Of a DNA stretch of 60,011 bases, positions 33,723 through 56,263 are shown piece by piece (position 1 is the stretch's first letter; the number at the start of each line of letters is the position of its first letter). Source of the DNA: Nodosilinea sp. LEGE 07298 (GTDB lineage Bacteria; Cyanobacteriota; Cyanobacteriia; Phormidesmidales; Phormidesmidaceae); assembly GCF_015207265.1 (NCBI RefSeq), contig NZ_JADEXE010000006.1:1-60011 (forward strand). The letters are read 5' to 3'. The notes beneath the pieces are model-generated. The model searched no databases, had not been told where the DNA came from, and saw only the letters and a list, made by a program, of their open reading frames with translations. The position numbers and the translations under genes were made by a program.

Positions 33723-35522
33723 GGCTCTTGGCCACTTTTGGTGATGCATCTAGGGAGAGCTATAGACAATAGGGGGATCCATTCTCGCGTTTGTTAACCC
33801 TATGGACCTCATCTCACATCTACTCCCCAGCCAAACTGAGTTGAGCTTGCAGCACTGGGATTTGGATACGGCCACCCAGCAGGTCACGGTTTACCTTGCC
33901 TCTACCCAGACCGTAGCCCAGTGTCCTCTCTGTCATCGCCCGAGTCACCGTATCCATAGCCACTACGACAGAACCTTGAAAGACTTGCCTGTTGTCCAAT
34001 TCAGTCTGACGATAGTGCTGACAGTCTGTAAGGTTTTCTGCCTCAATGACACCTGTCCTCGACGGATTTTTACCGAACGCTTACCCGGAATCGTGGCCCC
34101 TTGGGCCAGGCGCACCATTCGTTATGTTAATCATCTCAAAGCCATCGCCCTAGCGTTGGGGGGTGCCGCTGGGGCTCGACTGAGCGAACAGGTTGGCTAT
34201 AGGCATAGTCGTAACTCAATGCTGCGAGTCATTGCGAGCCTGCCGTTACCGCAACTAATGACCCCAAAGATCTTAGGGGTAGACGATTTTGCCCTACGCA
34301 AGGGGCACAACTATGGCACGATTTTGGTGGATCTTGAGCAGCACCAGCCGATTGCGCTACTGCCAGATCGCACGGCAGAAACCCTTGAAACTTGGCTCAA
34401 AGAGCATCCTGGCGTTGAAGTCTTATCTCGGGATCGTTCCAAGACGTACAAGCGAGGGATGAGCCAAGGTGCACCGGAAGCAATTCAAGTGGCAGACCGC
34501 TTTCATCTGTTGCACAATCTCGAAGAGACGTTGGAAACAGCGTTTAAGGGACACTACTCAGTCCTCAAGCAGGTTGAAAAAGACCAGCGTCAGGCGGATG
34601 GTCTCGAGGTTCCGCATTCCTCAGACCTACCTGAGGATCCACAGTCTCCCAAAGCGCTCAACCGAGCTCATCGTTTGGAGACGTATGAGCAAACCCATGC
34701 CTTACGGCAGCAAGGATACGCCATTAAAGACATCGCTCACCATCTTGGTCTTGGCAAACGGACGGTCTACAAGTATTTGGCCGCGTCAACCTTTCCTGAA
34801 CGACAACCCACTATTCGGCAACAGGGCAGTGGGATGGACGCCTATAAACCCTACATTCAGGATCAATGGAACCGGGGACAGCAGCAGACCAAAGCTCTCT
34901 TTCACCTGATCCAACAGCAGGGCTATCCGGGAAGTTACTCGACCCTGGCCCGCTATACCCATCAGCTGCGTCAATTACCGGCTTCGGGCCTACCTAGCCC
35001 GGACTCTCTTAACGATTTGTCGGGTCGGGGGCCAGCCCCTCCCCTTTCAACCTCTCCTCAAAAGCCCCTAAGTGCTCGTCGAGCAGCATGGCTGATCTTA
35101 CAGCGACCAGAAACCCGGACAGCTGAAGACGATAGCTTATTAGAGCAGCTCGCTCAACAGCCCGAGTTATCGGGGGCTATCTCGCTGGCCCAAGGCTTTA
35201 TTGATCTCGTTCGGCAGCGGCTTCCCAGTCAGCTGGATGATTGGCTGCAGGCGGCTAAGACCAGCTCAATCAAGGCGTTTCAAAGCTTCGCCAAAGGTCT
35301 GGAGGAGGATTATGACGCGGTCAAAGCCGGGATGACATTAGAGGTTAGCAATGGACCGGTAGAGGGGCAGAATAATCGGCTCAAAATGCTGAAACGGCAG
35401 ATGTTTGGGCGAGCCAACTTGGAGTTGCTGGAGAAGCGGTTCATTTTGACCAGCTAAACGGCTGTAATTCGAGAACCGCAAAAGGTGCCAGTTTTACACA
35501 TCACCAAAAGTGGCCAAGAGCC
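33723..35522 (+). mobile_element. ISL3-family insertion sequence, complete
   Basis: The 1800-base element is bounded by perfect 24-base inverted repeats beginning GGCTCTTGGCCACTTTTGGT, and encodes one full-length transposase. The 8 bases on either side (GAACTTCG and TTTTTTTG) do not match, and each flank belongs to a different dead IS, so it did not simply insert here; deletion or recombination between copies is likely. It is the only IS in the window that looks fully active. Confidence 0.9.
33802..35457 (+). CDS. ISL3-family transposase
   Basis: This 551-residue protein has the N-terminal zinc-finger of ISL3 transposases (CPLCHRPSHRIHSHYDRTLK), an HTH segment (RLSEQVGYRHSRNSMLR), the first catalytic Asp in ILGVDDFALRKGHNYGT, a second in VLSRDRSKTY, an inserted HTH (IKDIAHHLGLGKRTVYKYL) and the C-terminal Glu in SNGPVEGQNNRLKMLKRQMF. 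Length and motifs are normal, with no frameshift. The start follows the left inverted repeat by about 55 bases. Confidence 0.93.
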   Translation: MDLISHLLPSQTELSLQHWDLDTATQQVTVYLASTQTVAQCPLCHRPSHRIHSHYDRTLKDLPVVQFSLTIVLTVCKVFCLNDTCPRRIFTERLPGIVAPWARRTIRYVNHLKAIALALGGAAGARLSEQVGYRHSRNSMLRVIASLPLPQLMTPKILGVDDFALRKGHNYGTILVDLEQHQPIALLPDRTAETLETWLKEHPGVEVLSRDRSKTYKRGMSQGAPEAIQVADRFHLLHNLEETLETAFKGHYSVLKQVEKDQRQADGLEVPHSSDLPEDPQSPKALNRAHRLETYEQTHALRQQGYAIKDIAHHLGLGKRTVYKYLAASTFPERQPTIRQQGSGMDAYKPYIQDQWNRGQQQTKALFHLIQQQGYPGSYSTLARYTHQLRQLPASGLPSPDSLNDLSGRGPAPPLSTSPQKPLSARRAAWLILQRPETRTAEDDSLLEQLAQQPELSGAISLAQGFIDLVRQRLPSQLDDWLQAAKTSSIKAFQSFAKGLEEDYDAVKAGMTLEVSNGPVEGQNNRLKMLKRQMFGRANLELLEKRFILTS

Positions 35523-36690: not shown

Positions 36691-36805
36691 GTATATTTTG
36701 CAACTTACTAAAGTAGTAGATGCGCTGATATGACTAGAAAACACTGTTGAAGAGACATGGCTGTCTTGACTAAACTATTAAATGAATAAAAAACAGAGAG
36801 GAACC

Positions 36806-39800
36806 ATGAGTGAAGAACCATTAGTAGTTTTGGATACAATTTTATCAACAGTATGTTTAACCGATGTTCAAGAGCAAGTATTTCTACAGTCCTGGCAAGG
36901 GAAAACCTATCAAGAGATAGCAGAAAGCACAGGTTATGATGCTGCCTATATTCGAGATGTTGGCTATAAACTATGGCAATTAATTTCTAAAGCTGTGAAG
37001 ACGAGAGTCACTAAAAATAATCTTAAATCTGTTTTCAGGAAAACATCTCAACAGTCTAATAATCATACACAACCACTGCAAACAGAAATGACGACTGATG
37101 CAAAAGCAGGGTTGCAGAATAATATTGATAATCGACAAGAACAAAAATTTGATTTTCCCAAAGAAGAAGCTGAAGCTTTAAACCACGCAAGTATAGATAT
37201 TTCAACTCGCTGTGATTGGGGAGAAGCTGTTGATGCTTCTATTTTTTATGGGAGAGCAGAAGAGCTTAAAGCTCTTCAGAAATGGAGTTTAGATGAACAG
37301 TGCCGTTTAATAGCAATATTAGGAATGGGAGGAGTTGGCAAAACAACACTTTCTGTAAAATTTGCATTGCAGATAAAAGACAAATTTGAATATATTATTT
37401 GGAGATCGTTACGCAATGCTCCGCCCGTGAAAGATGTTGTGACAGATTTAATATGTTGTTTATCAAATGGCAATGAAACAGAAGTAAATCTTCCGGACAA
37501 TCTGCACAAAAGGATGACAAGACTTATTGATTATCTACGTAGTTATCGATGTCTAATAATACTTGATAATTTAGAAGCAATTCTCCAGATTGGAGAGCAA
37601 TCAGGTTACTATCGGGAAAGATACGAAGGTTTTAACGAACTCATAAAAAGAGTAGGAGAAACTTTCCACAAAAGCTGTTTGATATTAACAAGCCGAGAGA
37701 AGCCATTAGAGTTTTCAGCCTTTGAAGGAGAAGCTTTACCTATTCGTACATTACAATTAAAGGGTGTAAGTGAACAAGAAGGATATGAAATTTTAAAATC
37801 AAAAGGCTCCTTTACAAGCTCAGAAGAAGAATGGAAATTGCTGATAAGTAATTACGCTGGAAATCCACTTTTACTAAAAATAGCTTCAACAACTATTAAA
37901 GAGCTTTTCAATAGCAGCGTATCCGAGTTTTTATCACAAAACACAATAGTTTTTGATAGTGTTAGAGATTTACTAGATCAGCAGTTCAATCGTCTATCAG
38001 AAGCTGAAAAAGATGTCATGTTTTGGCTTGCCATTAATTGCGAAGCGATCTCAATGGACACTTTACGAGAAGATACTATTTTAATAACCTCGAAGTCAAA
38101 TTTATTAGAAGCGATATCTTCGATCAACCGTCGTTCCTTAATCGAAAGAAATTTGTTGGGTTACACACTTCAACCTGTAATTATGGAATACGTTATTGAA
38201 ATCCTTGCCGAACAAATTTGTGAAGAAATTAGAACTGATAAAATTTTTATGCTGGCGAGGTATGCTCTTGTTAAGGCTCAATCTAAAGATTATATTCGGG
38301 AAAGTCAGAAAAGTATCATTATAAAACCTATTATTAATAAGTTAAAATCGTTAATGGGATTTGAATCCGAAATTGAAAAAAAACTATGTGAAATACTTTT
38401 AAAGCTTAAAGAAGATGTTTCTTTGTCAGCAAGCTACGCAGCCAGTAACATCATCAGCCTATTGCAACAGCTAGGAGTTGATTTACATAACTATGATTTT
38501 TCCGGATTAGCAATTTGGCAAGCTTATCTTCAAGGAACAAATTTACATAATGTTAACTTCTCTCGATGTAATTTTGATAAATCTATTTTTAATGAAATTT
38601 TGAGTGTTGTCCTGTCAGTCGATTTTAGTCCAAATGGAGAATGTTTGGCGACTGGAGCTACTGATGGGAAGATTTGCATTTGGCAGCCGAGCAGCAGAAA
38701 AAAACTGCTAATTTGCCAAGGACATACAAATTGGGTTTGGACAATTAATTTTAGTCCAGATAGTCAAATGATCGCCAGCGGTAGTGAAGATAAAACGGTA
38801 CGCTTGTGGAATATTTTGACAGGGCAATGCCGGGCAATTCTACGCGAACACATTGGTCAAGTGTGGTCAGTCAGCTTCAGCCCAGACGGTCAAACCCTAG
38901 CTAGTGGCAGTGAGGATCAAACTATCAAACTCTGGGATGTTCGCTCTGGTGAATGCAAACGGACATTACACAAACATACCGGTCAGGTGTGGTCAGTCAG
39001 CTTCAGCCCAGATAGTCAAACCCTAGCTAGTGGCAGTGACGATCAAACCGTGAAGCTTTGGAATGCTAACACAGGAGAGTGCTATAAGACACTCTTGGGA
39101 CATTGTCGTCGTGTTCGCTCAGTCAGCTTCAGCCCAGATGGCCAAACCCTGGCTAGTGCTAGTGAGGATCAAACTATCAAACTCTGGGATGTTCGCTCTG
39201 GTGAATGCAAACGGACATTACACAAACATACCGGTCAGGTGTGGTCAGTCAGCTTCAGCCCAGATAGTCAAACCCTAGCTAGTGGCAGTGACGATCAAAC
39301 CGTGAAGCTTTGGAATGCTAACACAGGAGAGTGCTATAAGACACTCTTGGGACATTGTCGTCGTGTTCGCTCAGTCAGCTTCAGCCCAGATGGCCAAACC
39401 CTGGCTAGTGCTAGTGAGGATCAAACTATCAAACTCTGGGATGTTCGCTCTGGTGAATGCAAACGGACATTACACAAACATACCGGTCAGGTGTGGTCAG
39501 TCAGCTTCAGCCCAGATAGTCAAACCCTAGCTAGTGGCAGTGACGATCAAACAATGAAGCTTTGGAACGTTAACACAGGAGAGTGTTATAAGACACTCTT
39601 GGGACATACTAACTGGTTGCGGTCTATTGCTTTTAGCTCAGATGGTCAAACCTTGGCTAGTAGTAGTGACCACACTGTCAAACTTTGGAATGCTAACACA
39701 GGAGAGTGTTATAAGACACTCTTAGGACATACTAACTGGCTGCGGTCTATTGCTTTCAGCCCAGATGGTCAAACCCTTGTCAGTGGTGGTGAGGAATATA

Positions 39801-40720
39801 CAGTCAAACTTTGGCACGTATACACAGGGGAATGTTGCAGAACCTTACGAGGGCATATGAATTGGGTTTGGTCTGTCGCTTTCAGCCCAGATGGTCAAAC
39901 TATAGCTAGTGGTGGCGGAGATCATGTTATTAAGTTTTGGAATGTTCGGACTGGAGAATGTCTTAAAACCTTCGTGGGTCATACCAATCGTATCCGCGCA
40001 GTTGTGTTTAGCCCAGATGGACAGACTCTTGCCAGTGGTAGTGAGGATAGTACAGTAAAGCTTTGGAATGTCTATACAGGAGAAGTACAACAAACATTGC
40101 AAGGACATACTGGTCAAGTTTGGTCAGTCACATTCAGCCCAGACGGACAGACTCTTGCCAGTGGCAGTGAGGATGATACAGTAAGGCTTTGGAATGTCCA
40201 CACTGGAGAAGTACAGCAAACATTGCAAGGACATACTAGTCGAGTTTGGTCAGTCACATTCAGTCCCGATGGTCAAACCCTCGCCAGTGGTAGCGGCGAC
40301 CATGTCATAAAACTTTGGAACGTCAGCACAGGCAAATGCTTCAAAACATTGACAAACCACACAGATCAGGTTCGATTCGTTGCTTTTGGCGCTGATAAAG
40401 ATACGCTTATTAGCGGCAGTGCTGATCAAAGCGTGAGGGTGTGGAATATCAGCACTGAAAATTGCTTTAAGACTCTTGATATTCTTACAGATTCAGCACG
40501 TTCAATTGCTTACAACTCCAGTACTCAACTTCTTGCCACTGTGAGCCAAGATGAATCACTTCAGATTTGGAATATAGCAACTGGTGAGTGCATTAAGATT
40601 TTCAAGTCTGTCAGACCTTACGAACAGATGAATATTACAGATGTTACAGGTTTGACAGATGCTCAAAAATCGACTCTAAAAGTTCTGGGAGCAATCGAAT
40701 CACCAAAAACAATAGCTTGA
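36806..40720 (+). CDS. STAND NTPase: vMAP-type HTH, NB-ARC, WD40 repeats
   Basis: ATG 36806 is preferred because AGAGAGG lies just before it. The protein has about 1304 residues. The N-terminal 80 residues form a helical DNA-binding-like domain common in cyanobacterial STAND proteins (QVFLQSWQGKTYQEIAEST). A linker leads to NB-ARC (about 150-450): Walker A GMGGVGKTTLS, Walker B CLIILDNL, and the GNPLLLKI motif. After a winged-helix region and a short pentapeptide-like stretch (about 570-600), some 16 WD40 repeats run to the C-terminus. Such proteins oligomerise on sensing a ligand, and some act in phage defence; no effector such as a nuclease or TIR is fused here, so the output is unclear. 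A 252-base unit inside the WD40 part is tandemly duplicated. Confidence 0.9.
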   Translation: MSEEPLVVLDTILSTVCLTDVQEQVFLQSWQGKTYQEIAESTGYDAAYIRDVGYKLWQLISKAVKTRVTKNNLKSVFRKTSQQSNNHTQPLQTEMTTDAKAGLQNNIDNRQEQKFDFPKEEAEALNHASIDISTRCDWGEAVDASIFYGRAEELKALQKWSLDEQCRLIAILGMGGVGKTTLSVKFALQIKDKFEYIIWRSLRNAPPVKDVVTDLICCLSNGNETEVNLPDNLHKRMTRLIDYLRSYRCLIILDNLEAILQIGEQSGYYRERYEGFNELIKRVGETFHKSCLILTSREKPLEFSAFEGEALPIRTLQLKGVSEQEGYEILKSKGSFTSSEEEWKLLISNYAGNPLLLKIASTTIKELFNSSVSEFLSQNTIVFDSVRDLLDQQFNRLSEAEKDVMFWLAINCEAISMDTLREDTILITSKSNLLEAISSINRRSLIERNLLGYTLQPVIMEYVIEILAEQICEEIRTDKIFMLARYALVKAQSKDYIRESQKSIIIKPIINKLKSLMGFESEIEKKLCEILLKLKEDVSLSASYAASNIISLLQQLGVDLHNYDFSGLAIWQAYLQGTNLHNVNFSRCNFDKSIFNEILSVVLSVDFSPNGECLATGATDGKICIWQPSSRKKLLICQGHTNWVWTINFSPDSQMIASGSEDKTVRLWNILTGQCRAILREHIGQVWSVSFSPDGQTLASGSEDQTIKLWDVRSGECKRTLHKHTGQVWSVSFSPDSQTLASGSDDQTVKLWNANTGECYKTLLGHCRRVRSVSFSPDGQTLASASEDQTIKLWDVRSGECKRTLHKHTGQVWSVSFSPDSQTLASGSDDQTVKLWNANTGECYKTLLGHCRRVRSVSFSPDGQTLASASEDQTIKLWDVRSGECKRTLHKHTGQVWSVSFSPDSQTLASGSDDQTMKLWNVNTGECYKTLLGHTNWLRSIAFSSDGQTLASSSDHTVKLWNANTGECYKTLLGHTNWLRSIAFSPDGQTLVSGGEEYTVKLWHVYTGECCRTLRGHMNWVWSVAFSPDGQTIASGGGDHVIKFWNVRTGECLKTFVGHTNRIRAVVFSPDGQTLASGSEDSTVKLWNVYTGEVQQTLQGHTGQVWSVTFSPDGQTLASGSEDDTVRLWNVHTGEVQQTLQGHTSRVWSVTFSPDGQTLASGSGDHVIKLWNVSTGKCFKTLTNHTDQVRFVAFGADKDTLISGSADQSVRVWNISTENCFKTLDILTDSARSIAYNSSTQLLATVSQDESLQIWNIATGECIKIFKSVRPYEQMNITDVTGLTDAQKSTLKVLGAIESPKTIA
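38951..39552 (+). repeat. 252-bp tandem duplication within the WD40 region
   Basis: Units start at 38951, 39203 and 39455 (GAATGCAAACGGACATTACA). The first two are essentially identical over 252 bases, and the third matches for about 95 bases before diverging (CCGTGAAGC becomes CAATGAAGC). Each unit is 84 codons, exactly two WD40 blades, so the frame is kept. Confidence 0.9.
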
Positions 40721-40788: not shown

Positions 40789-41565
40789 TCACCCCAAAAA
40801 ACCCTCAACTCCCATTCTAGGAACGCTGTTATACAAGTTTAACTGTGAGGCATGTTGTATATCAGCAGCAAAGCCTAATTCGCAAAGTTTTCTGCCAGTA
40901 CCACAGTCTAACAGTATAGCTTCTAATTGTTTACAGACATGGAAGAAAGCGCCTTCACAGACATAAGCCTCAGGAGACTTTTCATATTCTAAGTAGGAGA
41001 AAATAGCTCCTGCGCCTAAATAGTCTTCAATTGCCATTCTCGTTTCTCCATAGTCAGATAAAGCTGACTCTCGTTCCCCACAGCAAATGATCGTTACACA
41101 TAAATCAGTTGTCTTCAACATTTGGGAAATAGCGTTAGCGATCGCTTTTGCATTTACAAACGACCCAATAAAAAGGCAAGGAGCAGTTTGAGCGAAGCTG
41201 CTACAAGTTCCTCCATTGGGAGAGGGGATAACAATCTTTGTGCCTGCTGTTATTTCTACATAAGTTAGGGGAGATAGGGAAAAACGTCCTTTATGAGGAA
41301 CTTCGCTGCGTCTGACTGCCACTTCAGCTCCCAATCGTTGTGCAAGCACTACAGAATCCTCAGTGATAGAGCAGGGGTAAACTAGCCCCCCATGTGACAC
41401 AGCAGTCACAACAGTTGTAGAAAAACTGAGCGTATCTACAATGACGACAATATCATTTCTTGCTAAAGCCTGAACCGTGCCCCATTGCCCAAAATCTAGT
41501 TTACAACGGTAGGGATTTTGAGAAAAAATGTGAGGATTAAGCGACGTTTGGGAGGTGGAAGTCAT
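40789..41565 (-). CDS. ComB-family phosphatase (2-phosphosulfolactate phosphatase-like)
   Basis: This 258-residue protein has all the family landmarks: VVIVDTLSFSTTVVTAVSHG near the N-terminus, IPSPNGGTCS in the middle, CGERESALSDYG then RMAIEDYLGAGAIF, and CGTGRKLCELGFAADIQHAS near the end. ComB removes phosphate from 2-phosphosulfolactate in coenzyme M synthesis, but bacteria without that pathway carry relatives of unknown substrate. Here it is the last gene of a five-gene minus-strand run, 35 bases after the oxygenase gene. The proposed role is dephosphorylation of a phosphorylated intermediate made by the enolpyruvyl transferase and radical SAM enzyme. It is convergent with the STAND gene. 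Confidence 0.8.
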   Translation of the reverse strand: MTSTSQTSLNPHIFSQNPYRCKLDFGQWGTVQALARNDIVVIVDTLSFSTTVVTAVSHGGLVYPCSITEDSVVLAQRLGAEVAVRRSEVPHKGRFSLSPLTYVEITAGTKIVIPSPNGGTCSSFAQTAPCLFIGSFVNAKAIANAISQMLKTTDLCVTIICCGERESALSDYGETRMAIEDYLGAGAIFSYLEYEKSPEAYVCEGAFFHVCKQLEAILLDCGTGRKLCELGFAADIQHASQLNLYNSVPRMGVEGFLG

Positions 41566-41599
41566 GTCGGCACTTTTTATTGAAAATTCAATTAGCCCT

Positions 41600-42592
41600 T
41601 TAAAAGGTTGAAGACAACCAGATCCGCATTAGCCTACGCTTTTTTTCAGGCTGTGGATCATCCTCAAAAGCAGTTCTACCATGCAAGATAGAGTAGTTAT
41701 TGACGAGTAACATTTCACCACGGTTTAGCTGAAGACTTATAGCAATTTTATCCTGTTTTATAAGATATTCAATCACTCCTATAGATTCCAGCGTAACAGA
41801 ATCTATAGGCAAATTTTCTGCTTCATAGCCCTTGAAAATACGAATTTTTGAATAGCGAACGCTTAAACAATTTTTGTATGAAAAAATTGGAGCAAGCAAT
41901 GTTTCTGGAGTCTCTCCAGGCTGCAACTCAGCCCTACGATCAAAGTAGTAAGATTGATAAAGACGCTCCAATAGTTCTGGAGATTTCTCCAGAATAATGT
42001 TATGCAATGTTTTAGCACTAATTAGTAGGGAGTCACCACCAGTCTTCGCCGGTTTAAGAACAAACATGCCAACAACGTCAACAGATTGATTCCGAAACAG
42101 AGGTGCTGAATCGGTATGAGGGGCAAGAGGTGCTCTACTTTGGGTACCACGCACTCCAGATTTAGATATTAAGTCATCCTGGCTGTATCCCTTATCAAAA
42201 ACTGAGTACAGCCGATCCCCTTGAATATTTTGCACTAACACTGTTCCTAGAAAATTGCTAAGGCTCCAATACACCATGCATATTTCATCATCAGTGTATT
42301 TCTCAGCAGGCAATCCTTGCAAAACTAAAAAGCCACAACCAGTTTTAAGCTCTTGCAGTACTTTAATAGCTTCCTCTTCAAAGGATGGAATTGAAAAACT
42401 TTCCTCTATGACACTCTCGAGATTTCTACCAGTTTGACGAACCTCTTGCACCGCATTGTAAATTTCGTTTAAAGTCGCAGGGCTCAAATGATAATTCCAG
42501 CTATCTGCATGGGGAAAATTTCTATGGCACCAAACACCAAAGCCTGTAAATATTGATCTGTAAACAGGAGTAGTTTCAAGGATATATTTCAT
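41600..42592 (-). CDS. TauD/TfdA-like Fe(II)/2-oxoglutarate oxygenase
   Basis: The 330-residue protein begins at an ATG with GGAGA seven bases upstream. The iron ligands are H159 and D161 (LAPHTDSAP) and H304 (NNYSILHGRTAF); R323 (LMRIW) should bind the 2-oxoglutarate carboxylate. GGDSLLIS is the usual loop between them. The fold is that of TauD, clavaminate synthase and gamma-butyrobetaine hydroxylase. These enzymes hydroxylate, desaturate or cleave small substrates. In its setting it would tailor the product of the upstream enolpyruvyl-transferase and radical SAM steps, as 2-oxoglutarate oxygenases do in nikkomycin and polyoxin synthesis (inference). Confidence 0.85.
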   Translation of the reverse strand: MKYILETTPVYRSIFTGFGVWCHRNFPHADSWNYHLSPATLNEIYNAVQEVRQTGRNLESVIEESFSIPSFEEEAIKVLQELKTGCGFLVLQGLPAEKYTDDEICMVYWSLSNFLGTVLVQNIQGDRLYSVFDKGYSQDDLISKSGVRGTQSRAPLAPHTDSAPLFRNQSVDVVGMFVLKPAKTGGDSLLISAKTLHNIILEKSPELLERLYQSYYFDRRAELQPGETPETLLAPIFSYKNCLSVRYSKIRIFKGYEAENLPIDSVTLESIGVIEYLIKQDKIAISLQLNRGEMLLVNNYSILHGRTAFEDDPQPEKKRRLMRIWLSSTF

Positions 42593-42714
42593 AGATAGAT
42601 CTCCACGAAAACTAAAAATTTCTTATTAACAAGACAGCTAAACGATAGCTATATAGCTTTAGCCATCCTGTAAACCATTTCTCAAAAACAATCATATTGA
42701 CTGTCAAAATTTAA

Positions 42715-43737
42715 TTATTGAGTTTGAACGTTAATCCTTTGGAAGCTAATTAAAGCAACTGAAATAGATACAATTAACATTCCAATTACTTGATGAATTC
42801 GTAGTATCTCTCCAAGAAAAAACCAAGCAAGGGTAGAGGTGAAAATAGGTCCAGTTGACCCAATAGTAGATGAAAAAGAAGCACCAATAAGAAGAATTCC
42901 GTAGTTATTTAATAAGTAACCGGCAACCGTAACTAATGCCAAAATTAAAACGCTGATCCATAATGAGATCCACATGCCAGGAGCAACAGTAAATTTGGCG
43001 ATTGGGAAAAGCTTGACAATTATGGGTATATAGTTAAAAGTCACGACACTAGAAATGGACAGAAGAAGGGTTGTCAAAATGTTTGCCAAACTAAATGGAA
43101 CAGGATGAAAATTAAATCTTTGAGAGCAAGTTTGAGTTAAAACAACATTTACTGAAAACGCTATTCCTGCTGTCACTGCTGTTCCTACACCAAGCAAAAG
43201 ATTAGCGGTTTTTAGACTCTCAGGAGCAGGAATTGAGAGAAAACATCCACAATATAGGACAATCATTCCTAGACCTGTACTCCAGTTCGGACGCTCACCA
43301 AACAGTAGCCAAGTTAGCAGTAAAGTAACTGTGGGATAAGTAAAAAACATGGTGATTGCAATACCTGCTGGTATATTGCCAAGTGCAACATACATGAAGC
43401 ATTGCGACAAAAATAAAAAGATCCCACTACCGACAATCCGACCCAGTAAACCGAGTCGATTCACCTGAGTCAGTTGAATTAAATCTCGCCAGAGAAGCGG
43501 ATACAACCTTGGCCCTACGAAAAAAGCTAATAGGGGAACCATCAGCAACATTCGCATCATGAGAACAAGAAGCGAGTTGCCTAAAGTCGGAGCAATCCAA
43601 CCGCCGACTTGAAAGTGTCCAAAGAGGTATTGCTCCCTCAAGATCACTTTAGCAACAACATTTTGCATTGATAGCATGACAGAAGCTAACAAAACCAGCA
43701 GTATACCCTTTCCTTGATTTGATGATTGGTATTTCAA
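42715..43737 (-). CDS. EamA/DMT-family transporter
   Basis: This 340-residue hydrophobic protein has about ten transmembrane helices in two EamA repeats (first: LLVLLASVMLSMQNVVAKVI to LLLTWLLFGERPNWSTGLGM; second: ANLLLGVGTAVTAGIAFSVN to LAWFFLGEILRIHQVIGM). FGERP and LGE-I at the ends of the repeats are typical. The start appears to be TTG at 43737 with no clear ribosome-binding site. Family members export amino acids, nucleosides and other small metabolites across the inner membrane. In the middle of a biosynthetic run it is the likely exporter of the final product or its precursor. A 231-base gap separates it from the radical SAM gene, with a weak hairpin around 43890-43915. Confidence 0.85.
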   Translation of the reverse strand: MKYQSSNQGKGILLVLLASVMLSMQNVVAKVILREQYLFGHFQVGGWIAPTLGNSLLVLMMRMLLMVPLLAFFVGPRLYPLLWRDLIQLTQVNRLGLLGRIVGSGIFLFLSQCFMYVALGNIPAGIAITMFFTYPTVTLLLTWLLFGERPNWSTGLGMIVLYCGCFLSIPAPESLKTANLLLGVGTAVTAGIAFSVNVVLTQTCSQRFNFHPVPFSLANILTTLLLSISSVVTFNYIPIIVKLFPIAKFTVAPGMWISLWISVLILALVTVAGYLLNNYGILLIGASFSSTIGSTGPIFTSTLAWFFLGEILRIHQVIGMLIVSISVALISFQRINVQTQ

Positions 43738-43968
43738 AGTGGGCAGAATTCTGAAAGGGCAGAAGCCTTAGTGGTGAAAAAAGCTTTTTTGAGTCTCATG
43801 ATGGACGATCCAGGCGGTCAAAATAGACTCTGAAACCCATTACTTCGTTCGATCTCTTAAGAAGACCCAAATCTGCTGTGTCGGCGAAAATCCTTTATCC
43901 ATAAGGGTTTCAGGAGTTTCTGTCACTAAAGGATAGAAGCTAAAATGGAGAATTGTTTAGACCCTCCT

Positions 43969-45282
43969 TTAAGTTGTGACAGCGGAGACTAATTCGGAAA
44001 GTACAGTTTCCCGATCACCAAATTCAAGACGGTAAAAGTCACGACGGCTTAATCCCTCAACAATCTCACTACTAACGATCTGGCGGCACTGCGATAAGAA
44101 AGTTTCTTCATCCATATCAGCCCGAAGTTCATGATATGGAGTGTAAGCTGTAGGTCGCAGACGGGCACCAACTTCCCGCACAAGTTTAAAGGTGTAGGCA
44201 ACGCCTTCTTGAGTTTGACCTGGCATCCCTAGCATGACAAAACAATTCAATTCAACTCCACGTTCGCGACACCAACGCGCCACCTCTTGCAGACGATTTT
44301 CTGTTGTACGCTTTGCTTTTGGCAAGAGCGCAATAGCTCCTGCATCTAAAGTTTCTAACCCAACACTAATTCGCAGACAACGTGAGCGTGCCATCGCATC
44401 AACCAAGGCTTCATCTAAATGATGAAGCGTGGTACAAGTTTTCCAAGCATATCCAGCGGGATGGGTTTCAATGGCTTTAGCAAAGTTTAAAACCCAATCA
44501 CGCTTGAGTGTAAAAGTGGGAGAGTAGGTTGAGATGTAGTCAAACTCATAGAATTGTCGAGCTTGATCAGCGTAAGCCAAGATTGAAGCCACGCTCCGAC
44601 GGCGCTCTTTCAGTCCTTGTGCTGGCGGAACCAGGCAGTAGGAACACCCCATCGGACAGCCGCGTGAGATTGTTATGGGTAATTCGCGCTGCCCTGATAA
44701 CCCACTAAATTCTAGAGTGGCATCCTGATAGAGACGGTTGTATTGGTGCCAAGGAACCTCTGGCGGATTGGGAAACGCCCACTCTTCAGCAGGCAGGTAA
44801 ATACCTTGTCCCGTGTTAATGTACCCCCCTGAAGAAGGAGTTCGTAGGAGCAAGCCAGTGAGATCCTGTTGCTGACGCAGACCGGATAACCATTCAGTAA
44901 ATTGTGCAATCCCTACCTCCCAATCGCCAGACGCAACGATGGCATCGATTTCATAGCGCTGAAAAAATCCAGGGATGCTACTACTAGCCCGACCAAAGGT
45001 AATGATGCGAGTTTGCGGTGAAATTTCACGGCAGTAAGCAATAAGCGTCTTTATTCCCTGAATTGTATCAAATTCATTATGAATAGCTAGAACATCAGGC
45101 TCCCGAACCAGTTCTCGTGCTACTGCCGCCCAAGTCCAACTGAGCACTCCAGCATCAACAGTTCGCACTTCGGAAATATAAGGTAACTTCCGTAAATAGT
45201 TACTAGTTTCCCAAAGCGTATTGTGGTGACCAGCATTAAAATACGTAGGGATATCTGGAGGCCAGATTACAAGAACTTTCAT
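43969..45282 (-). CDS. Radical SAM enzyme with cobalamin-type N-terminal domain
   Basis: This 437-residue protein has a radical SAM core with the cluster-binding cysteines C209, C213 and C216 in ISRGCPMGCSYC, then YISTYSPTFTL, RISVGLETLD and FVMLGMPGQTQE as later barrel strands. The first 190 residues (MKVLVIWPPDIPTYFNAGHH onward) resemble the Rossmann fold of B12-binding radical SAM proteins but lack DxHxxG, so cobalamin may not bind. The gene overlaps the enolpyruvyl-transferase gene by 4 bases, implying coupled translation and consecutive steps. The closest pathway parallel I know is PolH/NikJ, which cyclises enolpyruvyl-UMP to octosyl acid phosphate. The match is by context and layout, not by a checked alignment. 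Confidence 0.85.
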   Translation of the reverse strand: MKVLVIWPPDIPTYFNAGHHNTLWETSNYLRKLPYISEVRTVDAGVLSWTWAAVARELVREPDVLAIHNEFDTIQGIKTLIAYCREISPQTRIITFGRASSSIPGFFQRYEIDAIVASGDWEVGIAQFTEWLSGLRQQQDLTGLLLRTPSSGGYINTGQGIYLPAEEWAFPNPPEVPWHQYNRLYQDATLEFSGLSGQRELPITISRGCPMGCSYCLVPPAQGLKERRRSVASILAYADQARQFYEFDYISTYSPTFTLKRDWVLNFAKAIETHPAGYAWKTCTTLHHLDEALVDAMARSRCLRISVGLETLDAGAIALLPKAKRTTENRLQEVARWCRERGVELNCFVMLGMPGQTQEGVAYTFKLVREVGARLRPTAYTPYHELRADMDEETFLSQCRQIVSSEIVEGLSRRDFYRLEFGDRETVLSELVSAVTT

Positions 45283-46664
45283 GCCAAATCTCCAAAAACA
45301 GGTTGAATGTTTGCGCCAAGAGCATTGAGCTTTTGCGGTAAATTCGCGTAACCACGAACCAAATGGCTTGTGCCAGTGATCTGGGTTGTCCCTTGAGCAG
45401 ATAGCCCTGCCAAGACTAAGGCAGCAGCAGATCGCAGATCAGGCGCATGAACAGGCGCGGCACGTAATGTTGGAACGCCTGTGCAATAGAGCGTCCTTTG
45501 ATGCTCATTGTTTAGACCACCCATGTACCTCAATTGTGAGGCATAGCCAAAGCGATGCTCCCAAATTACCTCTTCTAAACTGCTAGGCCCGTCTGCAAGC
45601 GACATCAGCACAGCAAAGATTGGGCCAACATCAGTGGGTAGTGTCTCGGTCGTCAAGACGACAGGACGAAGACGCTCCTTGCAGATGACGACTATAGTAT
45701 CTGCATTCTGCTCAATGCTGATTCCCATAGAGCGAAAGGCTGCTACCTCAACATCCATACCTGTAAGCGATGCCTGTTGAAAGTGAACTTGTCCACCTGT
45801 AACAGCAACAGCACCGATGTAGGTACTCAATACTTGAGGATCACTCGGTACAGTGAAATGGGTTCCGTGGAGGGATGTAACCCCTTGAATACGAATACAG
45901 CGTGTTCCTTCACCTTCAATTTGTGCTCCCATTGAGCGCAGAAAAGAGCAAAGGTCTATGATGAAACGCCCCCAGTAAGCACCTTCGATAACAGTTTCGC
46001 CATTAGCCAAGACACCTGCTAATAAGGCTGTTTTCGTAGCACTAGAGATAAATTTGTTGTTTTTCACTCCATAACACAAGTTGAGTTGGATATGGCAACC
46101 TTTCAGTCCACTGGATGGAACAGAGGCTTCGATTGTTTCTCCTAAAACAACTTTGGCACCTAGCATTTGCAAAACTTCAACCATCGGCTCTATGGGACGC
46201 ACACCGATATTGCATCCACCTTGATTTCTAGGGAGCTGTACCCAGCCATGCCGTATGAGGAGCGTTGGCAGCAAGTAAATCGTTCCGTGTACAGAGTTGA
46301 ACGTCTCGACAGGCAGTGAATTTTCTAGATGGACTTGGCGGCACGAGAGTTGCAGTGTTTGTTCCATATAAGTCACATCAGCACCCATTTGTGCTAAACA
46401 CTGACAAAGCACTAGGTGATCTAGCATGTCTGGCGAGTGTTTCAAAATGACAGGTTCAGTAGTGAGCAAAGATGCCGCGATCATAGTGACAGAAGATACT
46501 TTATTTCCCTCAATTGATACAGACCCATTCAGGCACCGCTGTCCTTGTATATTTAAAACGTCTGGGATAGGGAAAATTTCGGTACCATAAAAAGATTGAA
46601 GAAGGCTGAGATCCGAAGTTTTTGTGAGCATCATTTTTTGCATTTGAGTAAATATTGAATGCAT
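45279..46664 (-). CDS. MurA-like enolpyruvyl transferase
   Basis: This 461-residue protein has the two-domain EPT fold and MurA-type catalytic residues: K55 (EGNKVSSVTMI), C151 in NQGGCNIGVRP (the fosfomycin-binding Cys), D345 (LPTDVGP) and R411 (DLRSAAALVLAGLSAQG). It transfers enolpyruvate from PEP to a hydroxyl of a (probably nucleotide) acceptor. It is too diverged to be the housekeeping MurA: the usual GAKNA reads GNKVSS, and there is a 30-residue N-terminal extension. Genetic coupling to a radical SAM gene also argues for a secondary pathway, as with NikO/PolA, which act on UMP. It is the first gene of the run; its promoter should lie within 46670-46880. Confidence 0.87.
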   Translation of the reverse strand: MHSIFTQMQKMMLTKTSDLSLLQSFYGTEIFPIPDVLNIQGQRCLNGSVSIEGNKVSSVTMIAASLLTTEPVILKHSPDMLDHLVLCQCLAQMGADVTYMEQTLQLSCRQVHLENSLPVETFNSVHGTIYLLPTLLIRHGWVQLPRNQGGCNIGVRPIEPMVEVLQMLGAKVVLGETIEASVPSSGLKGCHIQLNLCYGVKNNKFISSATKTALLAGVLANGETVIEGAYWGRFIIDLCSFLRSMGAQIEGEGTRCIRIQGVTSLHGTHFTVPSDPQVLSTYIGAVAVTGGQVHFQQASLTGMDVEVAAFRSMGISIEQNADTIVVICKERLRPVVLTTETLPTDVGPIFAVLMSLADGPSSLEEVIWEHRFGYASQLRYMGGLNNEHQRTLYCTGVPTLRAAPVHAPDLRSAAALVLAGLSAQGTTQITGTSHLVRGYANLPQKLNALGANIQPVFGDLA

Positions 46665-47368: not shown

Positions 47369-48538
47369 CTAAAGCTCAATATCTAGGGCTTTTCGTGTTG
47401 ACTGAAATATAGGGGCACTCTGGCCGTGAGTCAGTTGATGAGTGATGGCTTGGCAGTACTCTAGCGCCGCATAGTGGCCCTGGTTCAGGCGTTGGGCTTG
47501 CGCCGTTTGCCCCTGCCGGAGTATCCCCACAACGGAGAGAGTGGATTCTCCTTCTGAGGCAGCCAGCCGGGCAACGTCGGCATCGAGTTGTCTCCCCTGG
47601 GGCTCACCAGAGCCACCTTGGGCGACCTTAGAATAATGAGCGTAACGTTCCTTCCAGAGCTGCTGAAGCGCTTCATAACCAGTGAGGAGCTGCTGACACT
47701 GGGCCTGATTCATCGCCATTACTTGAGTCAGCACGACATCTTGGTCGGAGCGATACTCAATCTGTCGGTGCTTTTGAAGACCATTGATAGAGTAGGCAGG
47801 CCCCAGGCGGCGACCGGCAAAAGAATGGCCATCAACAGAATAGGAAATACCGATAAAGGCAGGCCCATCTCTAGGAGCTGAAGCGTTTCGCAGGTGAACC
47901 TCAATCCCCCTCGCTTTGAGCCGGGTTACCAGCATAGCCAAAGTGGAGCGGTCATTTGTAACACGGTCAATCTCATCCCAGAGCATTTCCTTGGGCAAGG
48001 TTTCGCCCGTGCGTTCTTTGCGCCGACATTCCCCAGTAGTAAGGTTACGGCGCTGGCTTGGTGGGGCAACAGCGAGAGGTTTGAGGCCCATCTCCTGCTC
48101 TAGCTGTCGAGCAAGACGTTGAAGGTTAAGCCTGGTAAAGCTGTCATTGACGCGATTTCCTTCTAAGTCAATGGCGGTGGTAGCAATGTGCCAATGCTGC
48201 ACGCCATTGGCCGATTCCTTGTCGTGATGTTCGGTGACAAAGAAGGGGCAGCCCCCGTGGCCCATGCTGTCTAAGATTTTCAAGGAGATAAGGGCTATCT
48301 GGTGGGTATCAACGTGTTCGTCCGGTGGGAGACTAACCATCAGGTGAGCCATGGTCTGCTTTACCTGGCGAATCCGAGGGCGAGAGACGATCCAATCAAA
48401 TTCACAAGCTAAATCCTTTGGGGTGCTCCAAGCCATGTTGGAGATGATGATGGGTTTGGCGCTACTGACCTTGTCCGGGTCGAGCAGATAAGAACAAAGC
48501 CCGTGGGCGTTGCTGCCTTTAACCATCTTGATGATCAT
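47369..48538 (-). CDS. Mobilisation relaxase (MOBP-like)
   Basis: This 389-residue protein starts MIIKMVKGSNAHGLCSYLLD, with the candidate nicking tyrosine Y17, and has the metal-binding motif EHHDKE...GVQHWHI (H105, D106, H115, H117) in the order of motif III of MOBP relaxases. QRLARQLEQEMGLKPL follows, as is usual after the relaxase core. It should nick one strand at oriT and carry it into the recipient. There is no helicase or primase domain. Its start overlaps the end of the small accessory gene by 20 bases, so the two are one operon. Reading away from the repeat block at 49.1-49.9 kb, it places oriT there or just beside it. Confidence 0.85.
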   Translation of the reverse strand: MIIKMVKGSNAHGLCSYLLDPDKVSSAKPIIISNMAWSTPKDLACEFDWIVSRPRIRQVKQTMAHLMVSLPPDEHVDTHQIALISLKILDSMGHGGCPFFVTEHHDKESANGVQHWHIATTAIDLEGNRVNDSFTRLNLQRLARQLEQEMGLKPLAVAPPSQRRNLTTGECRRKERTGETLPKEMLWDEIDRVTNDRSTLAMLVTRLKARGIEVHLRNASAPRDGPAFIGISYSVDGHSFAGRRLGPAYSINGLQKHRQIEYRSDQDVVLTQVMAMNQAQCQQLLTGYEALQQLWKERYAHYSKVAQGGSGEPQGRQLDADVARLAASEGESTLSVVGILRQGQTAQAQRLNQGHYAALEYCQAITHQLTHGQSAPIFQSTRKALDIEL

Positions 48539-48860
48539 AATTGTCCTCGCCTTGAATGACGGGGGTTAAGGTGCGCTGTATTTCAAGGTTCGACTGGTGT
48601 AGCTCTCTCAAGTCTTGGAGGAGAGAGTCGGGTGCTGTGGCGGCATACCGTTCCCCCAGGTCAGCCAATGCCTTATTCAATCGGCTGAGGTGGCTGTAGA
48701 GATCTCGATGGGACACTAACACGGGTGGGGGGCATAGGCCCAGCCTGCGGAGGAAGCTTGCCGATTTGGTTGGCTTAGCCGCCTGCTTGATGGCCTTGGC
48801 CTCAGCCTCAGAAACGTAGACAACGATGCGTTTAGGGCGTGAGATAGACATGACTGGCAT
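48519..48860 (-). CDS. Relaxosome accessory protein (MobC/TraJ-like)
   Basis: The likely start is ATG 48860 (MPVMSISRPKRIVVYVSEAE); an open frame extends upstream to 48977 but is not family-like. The 113-residue product has a ribbon-helix-helix opening (KRIVVYVSEAEAKAIKQAA), SASFLRRLGL, and a helical tail, the plan of MobC/TraJ/NikA proteins that bind oriT and recruit the relaxase. The 20-base overlap with the relaxase gene supports the pairing. The start is uncertain. Confidence 0.65.
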   Translation of the reverse strand: MPVMSISRPKRIVVYVSEAEAKAIKQAAKPTKSASFLRRLGLCPPPVLVSHRDLYSHLSRLNKALADLGERYAATAPDSLLQDLRELHQSNLEIQRTLTPVIQGEDNYDHQDG

Positions 48861-49075
48861 AAGGGTGGTTAATAAATCTTTGCCCAAAGAAGTTGGGGCA
48901 AAATATTGGGGAGATATTCGCAAGCTACGATCAAAAGCAAGTTTAGAAAGGTAGTCCTCCAGATCATGATCATGCAAATCATGGAAGGAAATGCTCTGTT
49001 GCTGTTGTCAGTATAAATGAACAAAAAGGTGATTGTGTAATCACTACTTGCCAATAAAAATCTTATTGCGAGAAG

Positions 49076-49856
49076 CTGAATGGATGATGAAAGATTATTG
49101 AGAGTCACTGAATAGATGATGAAATCTTTGCTGGATAAAACTGAATAAAAGGCCACCCATAACTGGAAAGTCTACCGAGAGGCACTGAATAGGTAATGCA
49201 ATCTTTTCTGGATAAAACTGAATAGATGATGAAAACCCTGCCGAGAGGCACTGAATAGATGTCCATCAATAATTGAAAATCCTGCCGAGGAGGCACCTAA
49301 TAGATGAGAAACCTTTGCTGGATGACACTGAGTAGAAGGCCACCCAAACCGGAAAACTCTACTGAGAGGCACTGAATAGATGTCCATCAATAATTGAAAA
49401 TCTTGCCGAGGAGACACCGAGTAGATGATGAAGCCTTTGCTGGATGACACTGAATAGAAAGCCACCAATAGCTGGAAAGTCTACCGAGAGGCACCGAATA
49501 GATGATGAAACCTTTGCTGGATGATACTGAGTAAAAGGCCACCAAAACCGGAAAACTCTACTGAGAGACACTGAATAGATGTCCATCAATAATTGAAAAT
49601 CTTGCTGAGGAGATACTGAATACATGATGAAATCTTTGCTGGATGACACTGAATAGCAGGCCACCAATAACTGAAAGTCTACCGAGAGGTACTGAATAGG
49701 ATGCCACCAATAACCGGAAAGCTTGCCGGAGAGACATTCAATAGATGATGAAAACCCTACTGAGAAACACTGAATAGATGATGAAAAGCTTGCAGGAAAG
49801 ACACTGAATAGAAGTCCACTAGTAACCGGAAGACTTGCTGGTAGGATACTAAATAG
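49076..49856 (+). repeat. Array of about 21 phased CTGAATAG repeats (candidate oriT/centromere)
   Basis: The octamer CTGAATAG or a one-to-two-base variant starts at 49076, 49108, 49141, 49185, 49218, 49251, 49296, 49328, 49372, 49417, 49450, 49494, 49527, 49571, 49616, 49649, 49692, 49737, 49770, 49804 and 49849, all in one direction. Spacings fall into two classes, 32-34 and 43-46 bases, differing by about 11. The short unit continues ATGATGAAA...TTGCTGGATGACA; the long units insert about 11 bases (GTCCATCAATAATTG or GGCCACCAATAACTG). The array lies between the divergent relaxase and StbA/TraK-like operons, where R388 has stbDRs and RP4 has oriT. Confidence 0.85.
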
Positions 49857-49927
49857 AGGATGAAAGCCCCACTGATAAACAGTGTAAACATTTGCCCAAT
49901 GACTTTTAAGTAACCAAAGGTGTTCTT

Positions 49928-50419
49928 ATGGCTGTAGACGAGCCACTCAAGGAAAAAATCAATGAACATATTCTTGCCAATTCGCAGCAAGACTTGAGTA
50001 GTGCTATGACAGCCTATGAGGTTGTTGATACGTGTTTTAATTCGATTGCACTACTTAGGAGGAATAAGAGTGACTGGAAGGTTGTTACCACTCAAGTAGT
50101 AAATTCGTTTGAGGCTGTCACAGGTCAAAAGATTTCTATTAGTCCATCTACCCTGGAACGTTACTACTACGCAATCAAGGCTGCCACTAGTGGTAAGAAA
50201 AGGAAGAGGAGTAAGAGAAAGCCAAGTGTAGCCAAGCCACTGCCTGTAGTTGAATCTGTTGATGTAGTTGAAGCTGAAGCGATTAAGCTAGAGGCTGCTG
50301 CTGACATACCAAAAGACACTGTTGCTGTTCCCCGTAAAGGCAGAAAAAAAGCGGCGGCTGAAGAAGGAGGATTTCAGGTGCCACGGCGACCTGGCTTCAT
50401 ACCGCCTGTTCACTTGTAG
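49928..50419 (+). CDS. Putative repeat-binding protein (StbA/TraK-like position)
   Basis: This 163-residue protein has a ribosome-binding site (AAGGTG) before the ATG. Residues 1-90 are helical with an HTH-like stretch (VNSFEAVTGQKISISPSTLE, then RYYYAIKAA). A very basic segment follows (GKKRKRSKRKPSVAKP), then an acidic linker and a basic tail. I do not recognise the family. It lies immediately after the repeat array and 32 bases before a ParA-like gene, the place held by the DNA-binding protein StbA in R388 and TraK in RP4. Binding to the CTGAATAG repeats is an inference from position and charge. Confidence 0.6.
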   Translation: MAVDEPLKEKINEHILANSQQDLSSAMTAYEVVDTCFNSIALLRRNKSDWKVVTTQVVNSFEAVTGQKISISPSTLERYYYAIKAATSGKKRKRSKRKPSVAKPLPVVESVDVVEAEAIKLEAAADIPKDTVAVPRKGRKKAAAEEGGFQVPRRPGFIPPVHL

Positions 50420-50451
50420 AGAGTTAACCTGCTGTTTAGAGGGCTTATTCC

Positions 50452-51240
50452 ATGTCAAATAGAACGGTCAATATTATCAATGGTGCGAAGGGTGGAACGG
50501 GTAAAACCCTGTTTGCCCGGTTGCTTTATGCGACCTTAGATCAAGCTGAGGCAAAAGTAGTGGGTATCGACTCCGACCAGGAGAACCCAGAGTTTTCATC
50601 ATTCCACGCGGATCCAGAACGCTTTGCAGTGCCGACCGTGGATTGCCTGTCGCTAGATGGCGGCAAAAAACTGGTAACGCTGCTGTCAGGGGAAGTGGAT
50701 CCATCCGTGGCCAGTCGTCTGCCAGCCTTAGCCCATCGCTGCCCCGCAGACGTGGTGATTTTGGACATGCCCGCCGCCTCAAGCACCCGATTGCGGGAGC
50801 AAATTGATGTCTTCGACCTGATTCCGGCCTGTGGCGAGATGGGGTATGGCGTGACGCTCATCAGCGTGATCAGCGCCAGCTACGCGCCGATAGAGTCAAT
50901 GAGCCGAATGCTCGACTTTTGCGGTGACACGGTTCGCTGGGTGGTGGTTAAGAACCAGTATTTTGCCACTGAAGGCGTGAAAGACTCATTTTCGTTATGG
51001 GAGGAGTCGAAAGAACGAAAGCGAGTCAAGAAGTATGGCGGGGTAGAAATTGAGTTGCCTCGACTAGCCGATACCACCTTCAAGGCCATCCAAGCCAGCT
51101 ACACCCCCTTCACATCCCTTGACAGCCTGCCCTTAGGTGACAAGCTGTTGGCACGGTCGTTTGTTCGGCGTAGTCGGGCTCAGATCGAGTCTGCAGGGCC
51201 ATTGCTTGGTCTACCAACCCCTATGGTTGAGGCGGCGTAA
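50452..51240 (+). CDS. ParA/MinD-type ATPase (TraL/StbB-like)
   Basis: This 262-residue protein has a deviant Walker A (GAKGGTGKT, residues 11-19), a Walker A' region (VVGIDSDQENP) and Walker B (DVVILDMPAA). Unlike chromosomal ParA it has no N-terminal HTH and no adjacent ParB. Proteins of this shape next to oriT (TraL of RP4, StbB of R388) act in plasmid positioning or transfer. It directly abuts the next gene (TAAATG), so the three genes 49928-51906 are one operon. The SPLGDKLLARSF-type C-terminal part is specific to this subgroup. Confidence 0.8.
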   Translation: MSNRTVNIINGAKGGTGKTLFARLLYATLDQAEAKVVGIDSDQENPEFSSFHADPERFAVPTVDCLSLDGGKKLVTLLSGEVDPSVASRLPALAHRCPADVVILDMPAASSTRLREQIDVFDLIPACGEMGYGVTLISVISASYAPIESMSRMLDFCGDTVRWVVVKNQYFATEGVKDSFSLWEESKERKRVKKYGGVEIELPRLADTTFKAIQASYTPFTSLDSLPLGDKLLARSFVRRSRAQIESAGPLLGLPTPMVEAA

Positions 51241-51906
51241 ATGGGGCAGCACAGCGTTGAGGATATCGCCAGTATTGAAACCGTTCTGCATGAACTGCTG
51301 CTGCGGATGGAAGCCCTAGAGCGAGTTCACCAGCAGGACGTTGCCCACATTCGTGTGAGTTTGGATCAATGGCAGGAGATCACGCAGAGCCTATCGCGGC
51401 TGCTGGAGGTGCGCACCCAAGAGACATCCGAGGTGAGCAGCGGCTACAGGACACTCGGCGAACACTTGGTCAGGTTCAGTCAATACTTGGTGTCATCAGA
51501 AGTGATGTTGAAGCGGGCGGAAGGGCCATTCACGACCTTAGCCACATCACTGCCCAGCTTGATAGTGGAGATGGAGAAACTCGGGAGCCAGGTGCACCAG
51601 CTGAACAACGATCCGCAGAGCGCAACCGAGGTCAAGGCGGAATTGCAGGCGCTGCGTCGTTTGATTCAGCGCAGCGCCAGCCAAAGAAGCGGAAGCGGAA
51701 CGTCGATCTGGACTGAACTCGGGCAATGGAGAGCGGCGGTAGTATGGTTATTGCTGGGTGCAGCAGTGATGGGAGTGCTTCAGTACCTGATTTTTCGAGG
51801 CAGCGGGTTTCAGACAGCCCTTACCGACGTCCGCGCTAGTGGCGGAACGGTAGATCGCCGACTGGAGCGCATCGAAATTTGGCTGGGGATCGTCGAGGAT
51901 GATTAG
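51241..51906 (+). CDS. Coiled-coil protein with one membrane helix (TraM/StbC-like position)
   Basis: The 221-residue protein starts at the ATG that touches the stop of the ATPase gene. Residues 8-155 are largely coiled coil (EALERVHQQDVAHIRVSLDQ and onward), residues 165-188 form one transmembrane helix (WRAAVVWLLLGAAVMGVLQY), and a short tail follows. No family is recognised. In RP4 and R388 the third gene of the equivalent operon also encodes a small protein of this general kind. A plausible role is linking the ATPase-DNA complex to the membrane or transfer apparatus. Confidence 0.6.
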   Translation: MGQHSVEDIASIETVLHELLLRMEALERVHQQDVAHIRVSLDQWQEITQSLSRLLEVRTQETSEVSSGYRTLGEHLVRFSQYLVSSEVMLKRAEGPFTTLATSLPSLIVEMEKLGSQVHQLNNDPQSATEVKAELQALRRLIQRSASQRSGSGTSIWTELGQWRAAVVWLLLGAAVMGVLQYLIFRGSGFQTALTDVRASGGTVDRRLERIEIWLGIVEDD

Positions 51907-52058
51907 AGCAACGCGCCATCTGAGCTATAGAGGATGAGAACCTCTGACTTTTTATTCAAGTTATTAGATAAAGTAGGTAAGAAATTTTAAAAGCCTCTGG
52001 AATCATTTCCTGTGGATTGTTTAGGATTTTGACCTATATTTTTTGGGCGTTCTAAGAT

Positions 52059-52448: not shown

Positions 52449-52468
52449 TTTGATAGCGAAGCTGTGGT

Positions 52469-54997: not shown

Positions 54998-55116
54998 GGC
55001 CTGCTACCGGGTCTAGTCAGTGGTGTCCTTGACCCCTGCCCCTGGGCCAGGCGACCAGCACCAGCAGGGGCCGTCCCAAAAAGAGCGCCAACGCAGCATG
55101 ATTCTCCGTCGAGATG

Positions 55117-56241: not shown

Positions 56242-56263
56242 CTGGTAGTTGTGGCCAAATCCC

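Follow-up and report, generated by a model that had tools for sequence, protein, structure and literature searches.

A candidate octosyl-acid-type nucleoside pathway in a five-gene block of the cyanobacterium Nodosilinea sp. LEGE 07298

What could a cyanobacterium make with a MurA-like enolpyruvyl transferase and a radical SAM enzyme encoded by overlapping genes? The question is raised by five consecutive minus-strand open reading frames (ORFs), all open, at 40789-46664 of a 60,011-nt stretch of the Nodosilinea sp. LEGE 07298 genome (the window: positions 1-60011 of contig NZ_JADEXE010000006.1, from an assembly of 7.25 Mb in 617 contigs). A first-pass annotation, made from the sequence alone, proposed an octosyl-acid-type nucleoside pathway. 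This proposal is supported here by an unrooted grouping of the transferase with NikO-type proteins and by a clade joining the radical SAM protein to one from a malayamycin-like cluster, which serves as a proxy. We consider it likely that the block encodes a minimal pathway of the octosyl-acid type, in which the phosphatase is a replacement and there is a single TauD step, and it probably makes a relative of the eight-carbon sugar nucleoside antibiotics. Established here are the protein families, the unrooted transferase grouping, the radical SAM clade, and that the block is conserved and has been transferred; from these we infer each of the reactions, their order, the nucleotide used and the product made.

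The block and the pathway it might encode

The five genes, with their families and coordinates, were recovered as first annotated from the ORF list, from Pfam searches in which all five proteins exceed the family cut-offs, and from a second genome described below. The enolpyruvyl transferase (EPT, NikO-type; 45279..46664, minus strand) is a 461-aa protein matching PF00275 (EPSP_synthase, 182.5 bits) over residues 40-446. Its stop overlaps the start of the radical SAM gene (43969..45282, minus strand; 437 aa; Pfam Radical_SAM, 70.2 bits) by the 4 bp originally reported (45279-45282). These are followed, also on the minus strand, by genes for an EamA (DMT) family transporter (42715..43737; 340 aa, with a TTG start; PF00892, 83.8 bits), a TauD-family Fe(II)/2-oxoglutarate oxygenase (41600..42592; 330 aa; PF02668, 82.9 bits), and a ComB-family, 2-phosphosulfolactate phosphatase-like protein (40789..41565; 258 aa; PF04029 2-ph_phosp, 92.7 bits).

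Among the octosyl-acid-type nucleosides are the agricultural fungicide polyoxin and the antifungal malayamycin, both from Streptomyces producers (passages of PMC5365060 and PMC8724604). As described in passages of PMC5365060, 3′-enolpyruvyl-UMP (UMP, uridine 5′-monophosphate), made by NikO, is cyclised to octosyl acid 5′-phosphate by PolH, whose cluster cysteines are C225-C229-C232; PolJ then removes the phosphate, and PolD and PolK are proposed to act next, followed by an aminotransferase. In the cyanobacterial block, the EPT would transfer enolpyruvate from phosphoenolpyruvate to the 3′-OH of a nucleoside 5′-monophosphate, probably UMP or a close relative. The radical SAM enzyme would then abstract a hydrogen at C5′, leaving a radical that would close on the enolpyruvyl group to give a bicyclic, eight-carbon octosyl acid phosphate. 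The ComB-type phosphatase would strip the 5′-phosphate, the role PolJ has in polyoxin synthesis; the TauD oxygenase would hydroxylate or oxidise the product; and EamA would export it. In principle, this gene set is enough for an exported, oxidised octosyl-type acid.

Like the polyoxin and nikkomycin systems, the block combines a NikO-type EPT, a CxxxCxxC radical SAM protein, a phosphatase and a 2-oxoglutarate oxygenase, and its EPT, radical SAM enzyme and phosphatase are encoded together, as in the octosyl acid core set. Unlike them, it has a ComB-family phosphatase, an EamA exporter and a cyanobacterial host, and lacks an aminotransferase (PolI/NikK); it also has one oxygenase, of TauD type, where polyoxin synthesis has both PolD and PolK. 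PolJ and NikL are of the tyrosine-phosphatase type. The corresponding family, PF13350, has no match in the Nodosilinea genome (the same search was positive in 6 of 14 control genomes), which makes the ComB-type protein the natural candidate for the phosphatase step. It is divergent within its family, scoring about 92 bits vs 272.7 for the genome's other ComB-family protein. The TauD protein has HTD at 159 and HGR at 304, and its nearest solved structure by sequence is FrbJ (5eqn; E 1.2e-31).

If this reading is right, the block would extend octosyl-acid chemistry to another phylum in a five-gene version, would suggest that the essential steps are those of the transferase, the radical SAM enzyme and a phosphatase, and would suggest that the phosphatase can be replaced by one of an unrelated family. 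It would also offer a compact operon whose product could be tested by expression. In the open PMC literature we found no paper on a cyanobacterial octosyl-acid-type block, and no biochemistry of the block's proteins. PolH and PolJ have been reported as probes for mining genomes (passages of PMC5365060), and an earlier notice among the clusters of that paper, or in subscription journals, is possible.

Sequence relationships of the radical SAM enzyme and the EPT

The CxxxCxxC motif of the radical SAM protein reads CPMGCSYC (residues 209-216). Of the NCBIfam models, 23 match the protein at E<=0.01; it falls under the cut-off of every one (for example, HpnJ 49.7 vs 577.6 and BchE 15.4 vs 481.35), and by these cut-offs belongs to none of the named methyltransferase, HpnJ, BchE or AprD4 families. 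DxHxxG is a cobalamin motif; it was looked for in the sequence and is absent. Matches were found in 20 of 72,556 plasmid records, the best two being Mesorhizobium proteins with 41% identity over 97% of the length, and the other 18 having at most 25.3% identity. In a tree that included 10 of these 18 and one further protein (L006), the window, Microcoleus (see below) and Mesorhizobium proteins group together (100/100), and HpnJ, nine other plasmid proteins and one protein from a relative's genome fall outside this clade. A grouping with methyltransferases or with HpnJ/BchE, named at the outset as the contrary outcome, did not occur in either comparison, and such an identity is rejected by the cut-offs and the tree alike.

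The two Mesorhizobium matches lie in a malayamycin-like cluster on root-nodule plasmids (NZ_CP050298.1, L007; CP050294.1, L008). Beside the radical SAM gene are genes for TruD, an aminotransferase, a carbamoyltransferase, a DUF6071 protein, a 2OG-Fe(II) oxygenase and a tyrosine phosphatase (PF13350); a methyltransferase is annotated in one of the plasmids, with a Pfam score below the cut-off (23.6 vs 26.3). In both plasmids the EPT gene carries a frameshift, though not at the same place, and both parts resemble NikO more than MurA: the first part scores 189 bits with NikO vs 105 with the best MurA, the later one 172 vs 90. As listed in passages of PMC8724604, the malayamycin set comprises TruD, MalO, MalJ, the phosphatase MalL, the oxygenases MalM and MalI, the aminotransferase MalK, the carbamoyltransferase MalD and the methyltransferase MalF. 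Each kind of enzyme in that list has a counterpart in the Mesorhizobium cluster, where one oxygenase was recognised, and this match therefore ties the block's radical SAM protein, by proxy, to octosyl-type chemistry. We propose, on this sequence relationship, that the protein is of the NikJ/PolH/MalJ kind. The block shares with the malayamycin and Mesorhizobium clusters a NikO-type EPT, a phosphatase and an oxygenase as well as the related radical SAM protein, but lacks their TruD, aminotransferase, carbamoyltransferase and methyltransferase.

The EPT raises the question of whether it is simply a MurA. Two further EPSP-synthase-family genes are found in the genome, one of which falls among MurA in the tree; the block EPT is not the genome's peptidoglycan enzyme. 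It shares with MurA the fold family, the GGCxIG motif and identities of up to about 35% (31% to NikO), and falls below the TIGR01072 MurA cut-off (312.6 vs 392.7). Trees were built with NikO (PDB 4fqd) and Mesorhizobium rows, and with a row for a NikO-annotated protein of strain K84; the 45-row tree has all 37 MurA rows, while the others have 17 of the 37, and L001 (AroA by inference) was used in the outgroup tree only. The EPT pair, from the window and Microcoleus, is separated together with the NikO-type rows from MurA plus a second MurA-like group in the unrooted 45-row tree (100/95), in a 25-row tree (99/95) and in a 26-row tree including the K84 protein (99/97). Under the simpler LG+G4 model the split stands at 98/96 without NikO, 99/97 without Mesorhizobium and 100/99 without the second MurA-like group; adding a single AroA outgroup row leaves it at 99/97. 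A grouping of the EPT pair with MurA, the other contrary outcome that had been named, did not occur, and is rejected by approximately unbiased (AU) tests (p 0.031 and 0.034).

Individual residues point the same way. The EPT has the motifs GGCxIGxR and DLR, which we take to be catalytic. To this extent the complete active site claimed in the first-pass annotation stands, but not all of it resembles that of MurA: the EPT, like NikO, has a histidine (His126) where an arginine (the R of the RAS motif) is invariant in 36/36 MurA rows. In addition, Gly127 replaces an alanine invariant in the same 36 rows, and Lys211 stands in place of a glutamate found in 33 of them. (This residue set excludes L012, which was kept as a control for the column counts and the insertion.) At 29 alignment columns NikO, Mesorhizobium and K84 have an identical residue that occurs in at most one of the 36 MurA rows; the EPT pair has it at 12, vs 7, 5, 2, 1, 0 and 0 for controls. 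Before K84 was added, the count was 17 of 56 columns, vs 0-9 in controls. Ten of the 12 are not found in AroA.

The segment preceding Lys211 is 22-28 residues long in the NikO-type rows, the EPT included, vs 14 in each of the 36 MurA rows. The shorter form is also that of L012, of the second MurA-like group (L046-L048) and of AroA; the insertion, of about 8 residues in the EPT, therefore looks derived, and favours descent of the EPT shared with NikO. Housekeeping MurA is rejected for the EPT on trees, residues and insertion. From these sequence features I take the EPT to have branched early within the NikO type. (AlphaFold models, made from two-row alignments, were poor and went unused: the mean predicted local distance difference test score was 45.9 for the radical SAM protein and 33.7 for the EPT.)

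The second MurA-like group offers another explanation: that a duplicated MurA was recruited elsewhere, for example for a modified cell-wall or polysaccharide sugar, and lies beside an unrelated radical SAM enzyme. Other cyanobacteria do have second MurA-like copies in polysaccharide-type loci (L046 and L047, labelled by eye), and the best BLAST matches of the EPT outside its Microcoleus copy are MurA. However, these second copies belong to another clade, whose union with the EPT pair is rejected (p 0.024), and they lack the insertion, so that a second MurA of the polysaccharide loci is rejected as the identity of the EPT. The EPT has also lost an invariant MurA arginine, and the nearest non-cyanobacterial relative of the overlapping radical SAM protein sits with a NikO-type EPT. 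We regard recruitment of a duplicated MurA as quite improbable. The copies themselves form a second cyanobacterial MurA-like clade (L046 7513-8811, L047 7221-8477, and L048); by eye, those of L046 and L047 lie among glycosyltransferase and surface-polysaccharide-like genes, with a MurB-like gene adjoining the latter.

Several results weigh against the octosyl-acid-type reading. The best EPT match outside Microcoleus, a MurA, scores 216 bits vs 137 for NikO, and the EPT exceeds the cut-off of one NCBIfam MurA subfamily (PRK09369, 336 vs 297). The AU p-values of 0.031-0.034 are modest, and all these transferase trees carry a long-branch warning. The AroA row, with a branch length of 10, roots the tree on the window branch, joining the NikO-type rows with MurA at a weak 86/61; descent from a common NikO-type ancestor is therefore unproven on the trees alone, and this rooting, which leaves the EPT pair outside the NikO-type rows, is also a point for a duplicated MurA. 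Two of the 12 NikO-type columns (348 and 375) are shared with AroA and with the second MurA-like group, and there are 25 columns at which NikO and Mesorhizobium differ but the EPT retains the letter of MurA. Outside the EPT, the phosphatase is of PF04029 vs PF13350 in the Mesorhizobium cluster, and the oxygenase of PF02668 vs PF13640. The absence of an aminotransferase from the block, reported at the outset, was borne out: none is encoded by the five genes, by 10 other ORFs of the window or by 9 ORFs around the Microcoleus block (the rest of the genome being unsearched).

The K84 protein is a further argument of this kind. It is encoded on plasmid pAtK84c (CP000631.1; Rhizobium rhizogenes/Agrobacterium radiobacter; L052 18587-26748), is annotated as NikO and, like the block EPT, is of the NikO type with the insertion. 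The locus is otherwise unlike the block, with other neighbouring genes and no relative of the block radical SAM protein within 20 kb of the EPT gene, so that a NikO-type EPT alone is no proof of octosyl chemistry. The neighbours encode a glycosyltransferase, AsnB, a HAD hydrolase and a MatE pump. Agrocin 434 has been assigned to a different plasmid of the strain, pAtK84a (passages of PMC4231840).

An alternative is that the same pair of enzymes acts on another phosphorylated alcohol (some other nucleotide or a sugar phosphate), forming an analogous ring in a product that is no octosyl acid nucleoside. The EPT pair does branch outside the NikO, Mesorhizobium and K84 rows in the trees, the MurA letters at 25 columns are compatible with this, and the block's phosphatase is of a family named for 2-phosphosulfolactate. 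The residues common to the EPT and NikO, however, include sites that are invariant in 36/36 MurA rows, and the radical SAM protein has its 41% identity to one in a nucleoside-type cluster. A different substrate of this kind seems to us unlikely.

Conservation and transfer of the block

A search of cyanobacterial genomes for the five-gene block had been suggested with the original proposal. Scanning GTDB genome contigs, a search that detects close relatives only, turned up one further locus, in Microcoleus sp. LEGE 07076 (NZ_JADEWV010000078.1, L004), with all five genes in the same order. Amino-acid identities between the two copies are 82% for the EPT, 92% for the radical SAM protein, 76% for EamA, 72% for TauD and 81% for ComB, with ratios of nonsynonymous to synonymous substitution rates (dN/dS) of 0.16, 0.07, 0.22, 0.18 and 0.14, respectively. 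The five genes are under purifying selection, and given the kept order and these dN/dS values the block is not a chance arrangement. The same values bear on the notion that the block is a decayed, non-functional, plasmid-borne remnant, for which one could cite the Mesorhizobium EPT frameshifts, which differ in position between the two plasmids, and the ISL3-type transposase gene that lies on one side of the block (33802-35457). With all five frames open in two genomes and dN/dS of 0.07-0.22, this explanation is hardly credible.

The DNA match between the two loci (blastn) extends over a convergent, plus-strand gene for a WD40-repeat/NTPase protein (36782..40720). Its N-terminal 596 aa are 70% identical to the product of the gene beside the Microcoleus block, vs 41-49% for the top-scoring matches elsewhere (37 other genomes, 29 with a match; one partial match of 185 residues reaches 54%), which makes it a sixth, co-travelling gene; it may have a regulatory or an immunity role. 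Outside these six genes, the loci have only one short stretch in common (E<=1e-5), upstream of the EPT gene.

Relatives are otherwise rare. At E<=1e-40 the single genome with a match to the radical SAM protein is its own, both among 386 cyanobacterial genomes over the phylum and among 63 of its own order; at E<=1e-20, 2 of 96 relatives have a match, namely its own genome and a genome with a 31% partial match to a different radical SAM protein. (The three sets overlap, and LEGE 07076 is not among their matches.) No relatives were found in scans of viral contigs.

The G+C content of the block is 43%, and that of the WD40 gene 40%, vs 57% at 1-24000 and 54% at 47369-60011 of the same contig; three loci elsewhere in the genome, on other contigs, are also at 57%. 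Low G+C (41-43%) is also found at 26.9-32.9 kb, on the far side of the ISL3-type transposase gene. The genome's own MurA is 72% identical to that of LEGE 07076, vs 92% for the radical SAM proteins. The G+C contrast and this difference in identity indicate that the block was transferred horizontally; it is mobile, on a plasmid-like contig here and with different neighbours in Microcoleus.

A more specific version of the octosyl-acid-type reading can be framed from these observations, though we hold it as a tentative and rather doubtful one: the product might belong to a new cyanobacterial class of bicyclic high-carbon sugar nucleosides with no amino group, assembled on a nucleotide that is neither UMP nor pseudouridine-5′-phosphate by an early-branching NikO/NikJ-like pair, with the five genes, including their own phosphatase and oxygenase, carried as a plasmid-borne cassette with the WD40/NTPase gene.

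The Microcoleus locus also has, on the opposite strand beside the block, two genes within 3408-6190: one for an amidohydrolase (by eye, guanine-deaminase-like) and one for a Rieske-type oxygenase.

Other genes and features of the contig

A pyridoxal-5′-phosphate (PLP)-dependent decarboxylase gene (Orn_Arg_deC_N, 96 bits) lies at 31152-32909 (minus strand), in the other low-G+C stretch. It was considered as a pathway member and rejected, because it is unlinked to the block in Microcoleus sp. LEGE 07076, where the best match, at 29% identity, is on a different contig.

The window also encodes a MobA/VirD2-type relaxase and, at 52469-54385 (minus strand), a telomere resolvase (ResT/TelK catalytic domain, PF16684, 134 bits), which together make the contig plasmid-like; a ParA-like gene is on the same contig. 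The replicon may be a hairpin-ended linear plasmid. The outer 3 kb at each end of the window contain no perfect palindrome whose arms reach 9 bases or more; farther in, at 56162-56181, there is a perfect palindrome of 20 bp.

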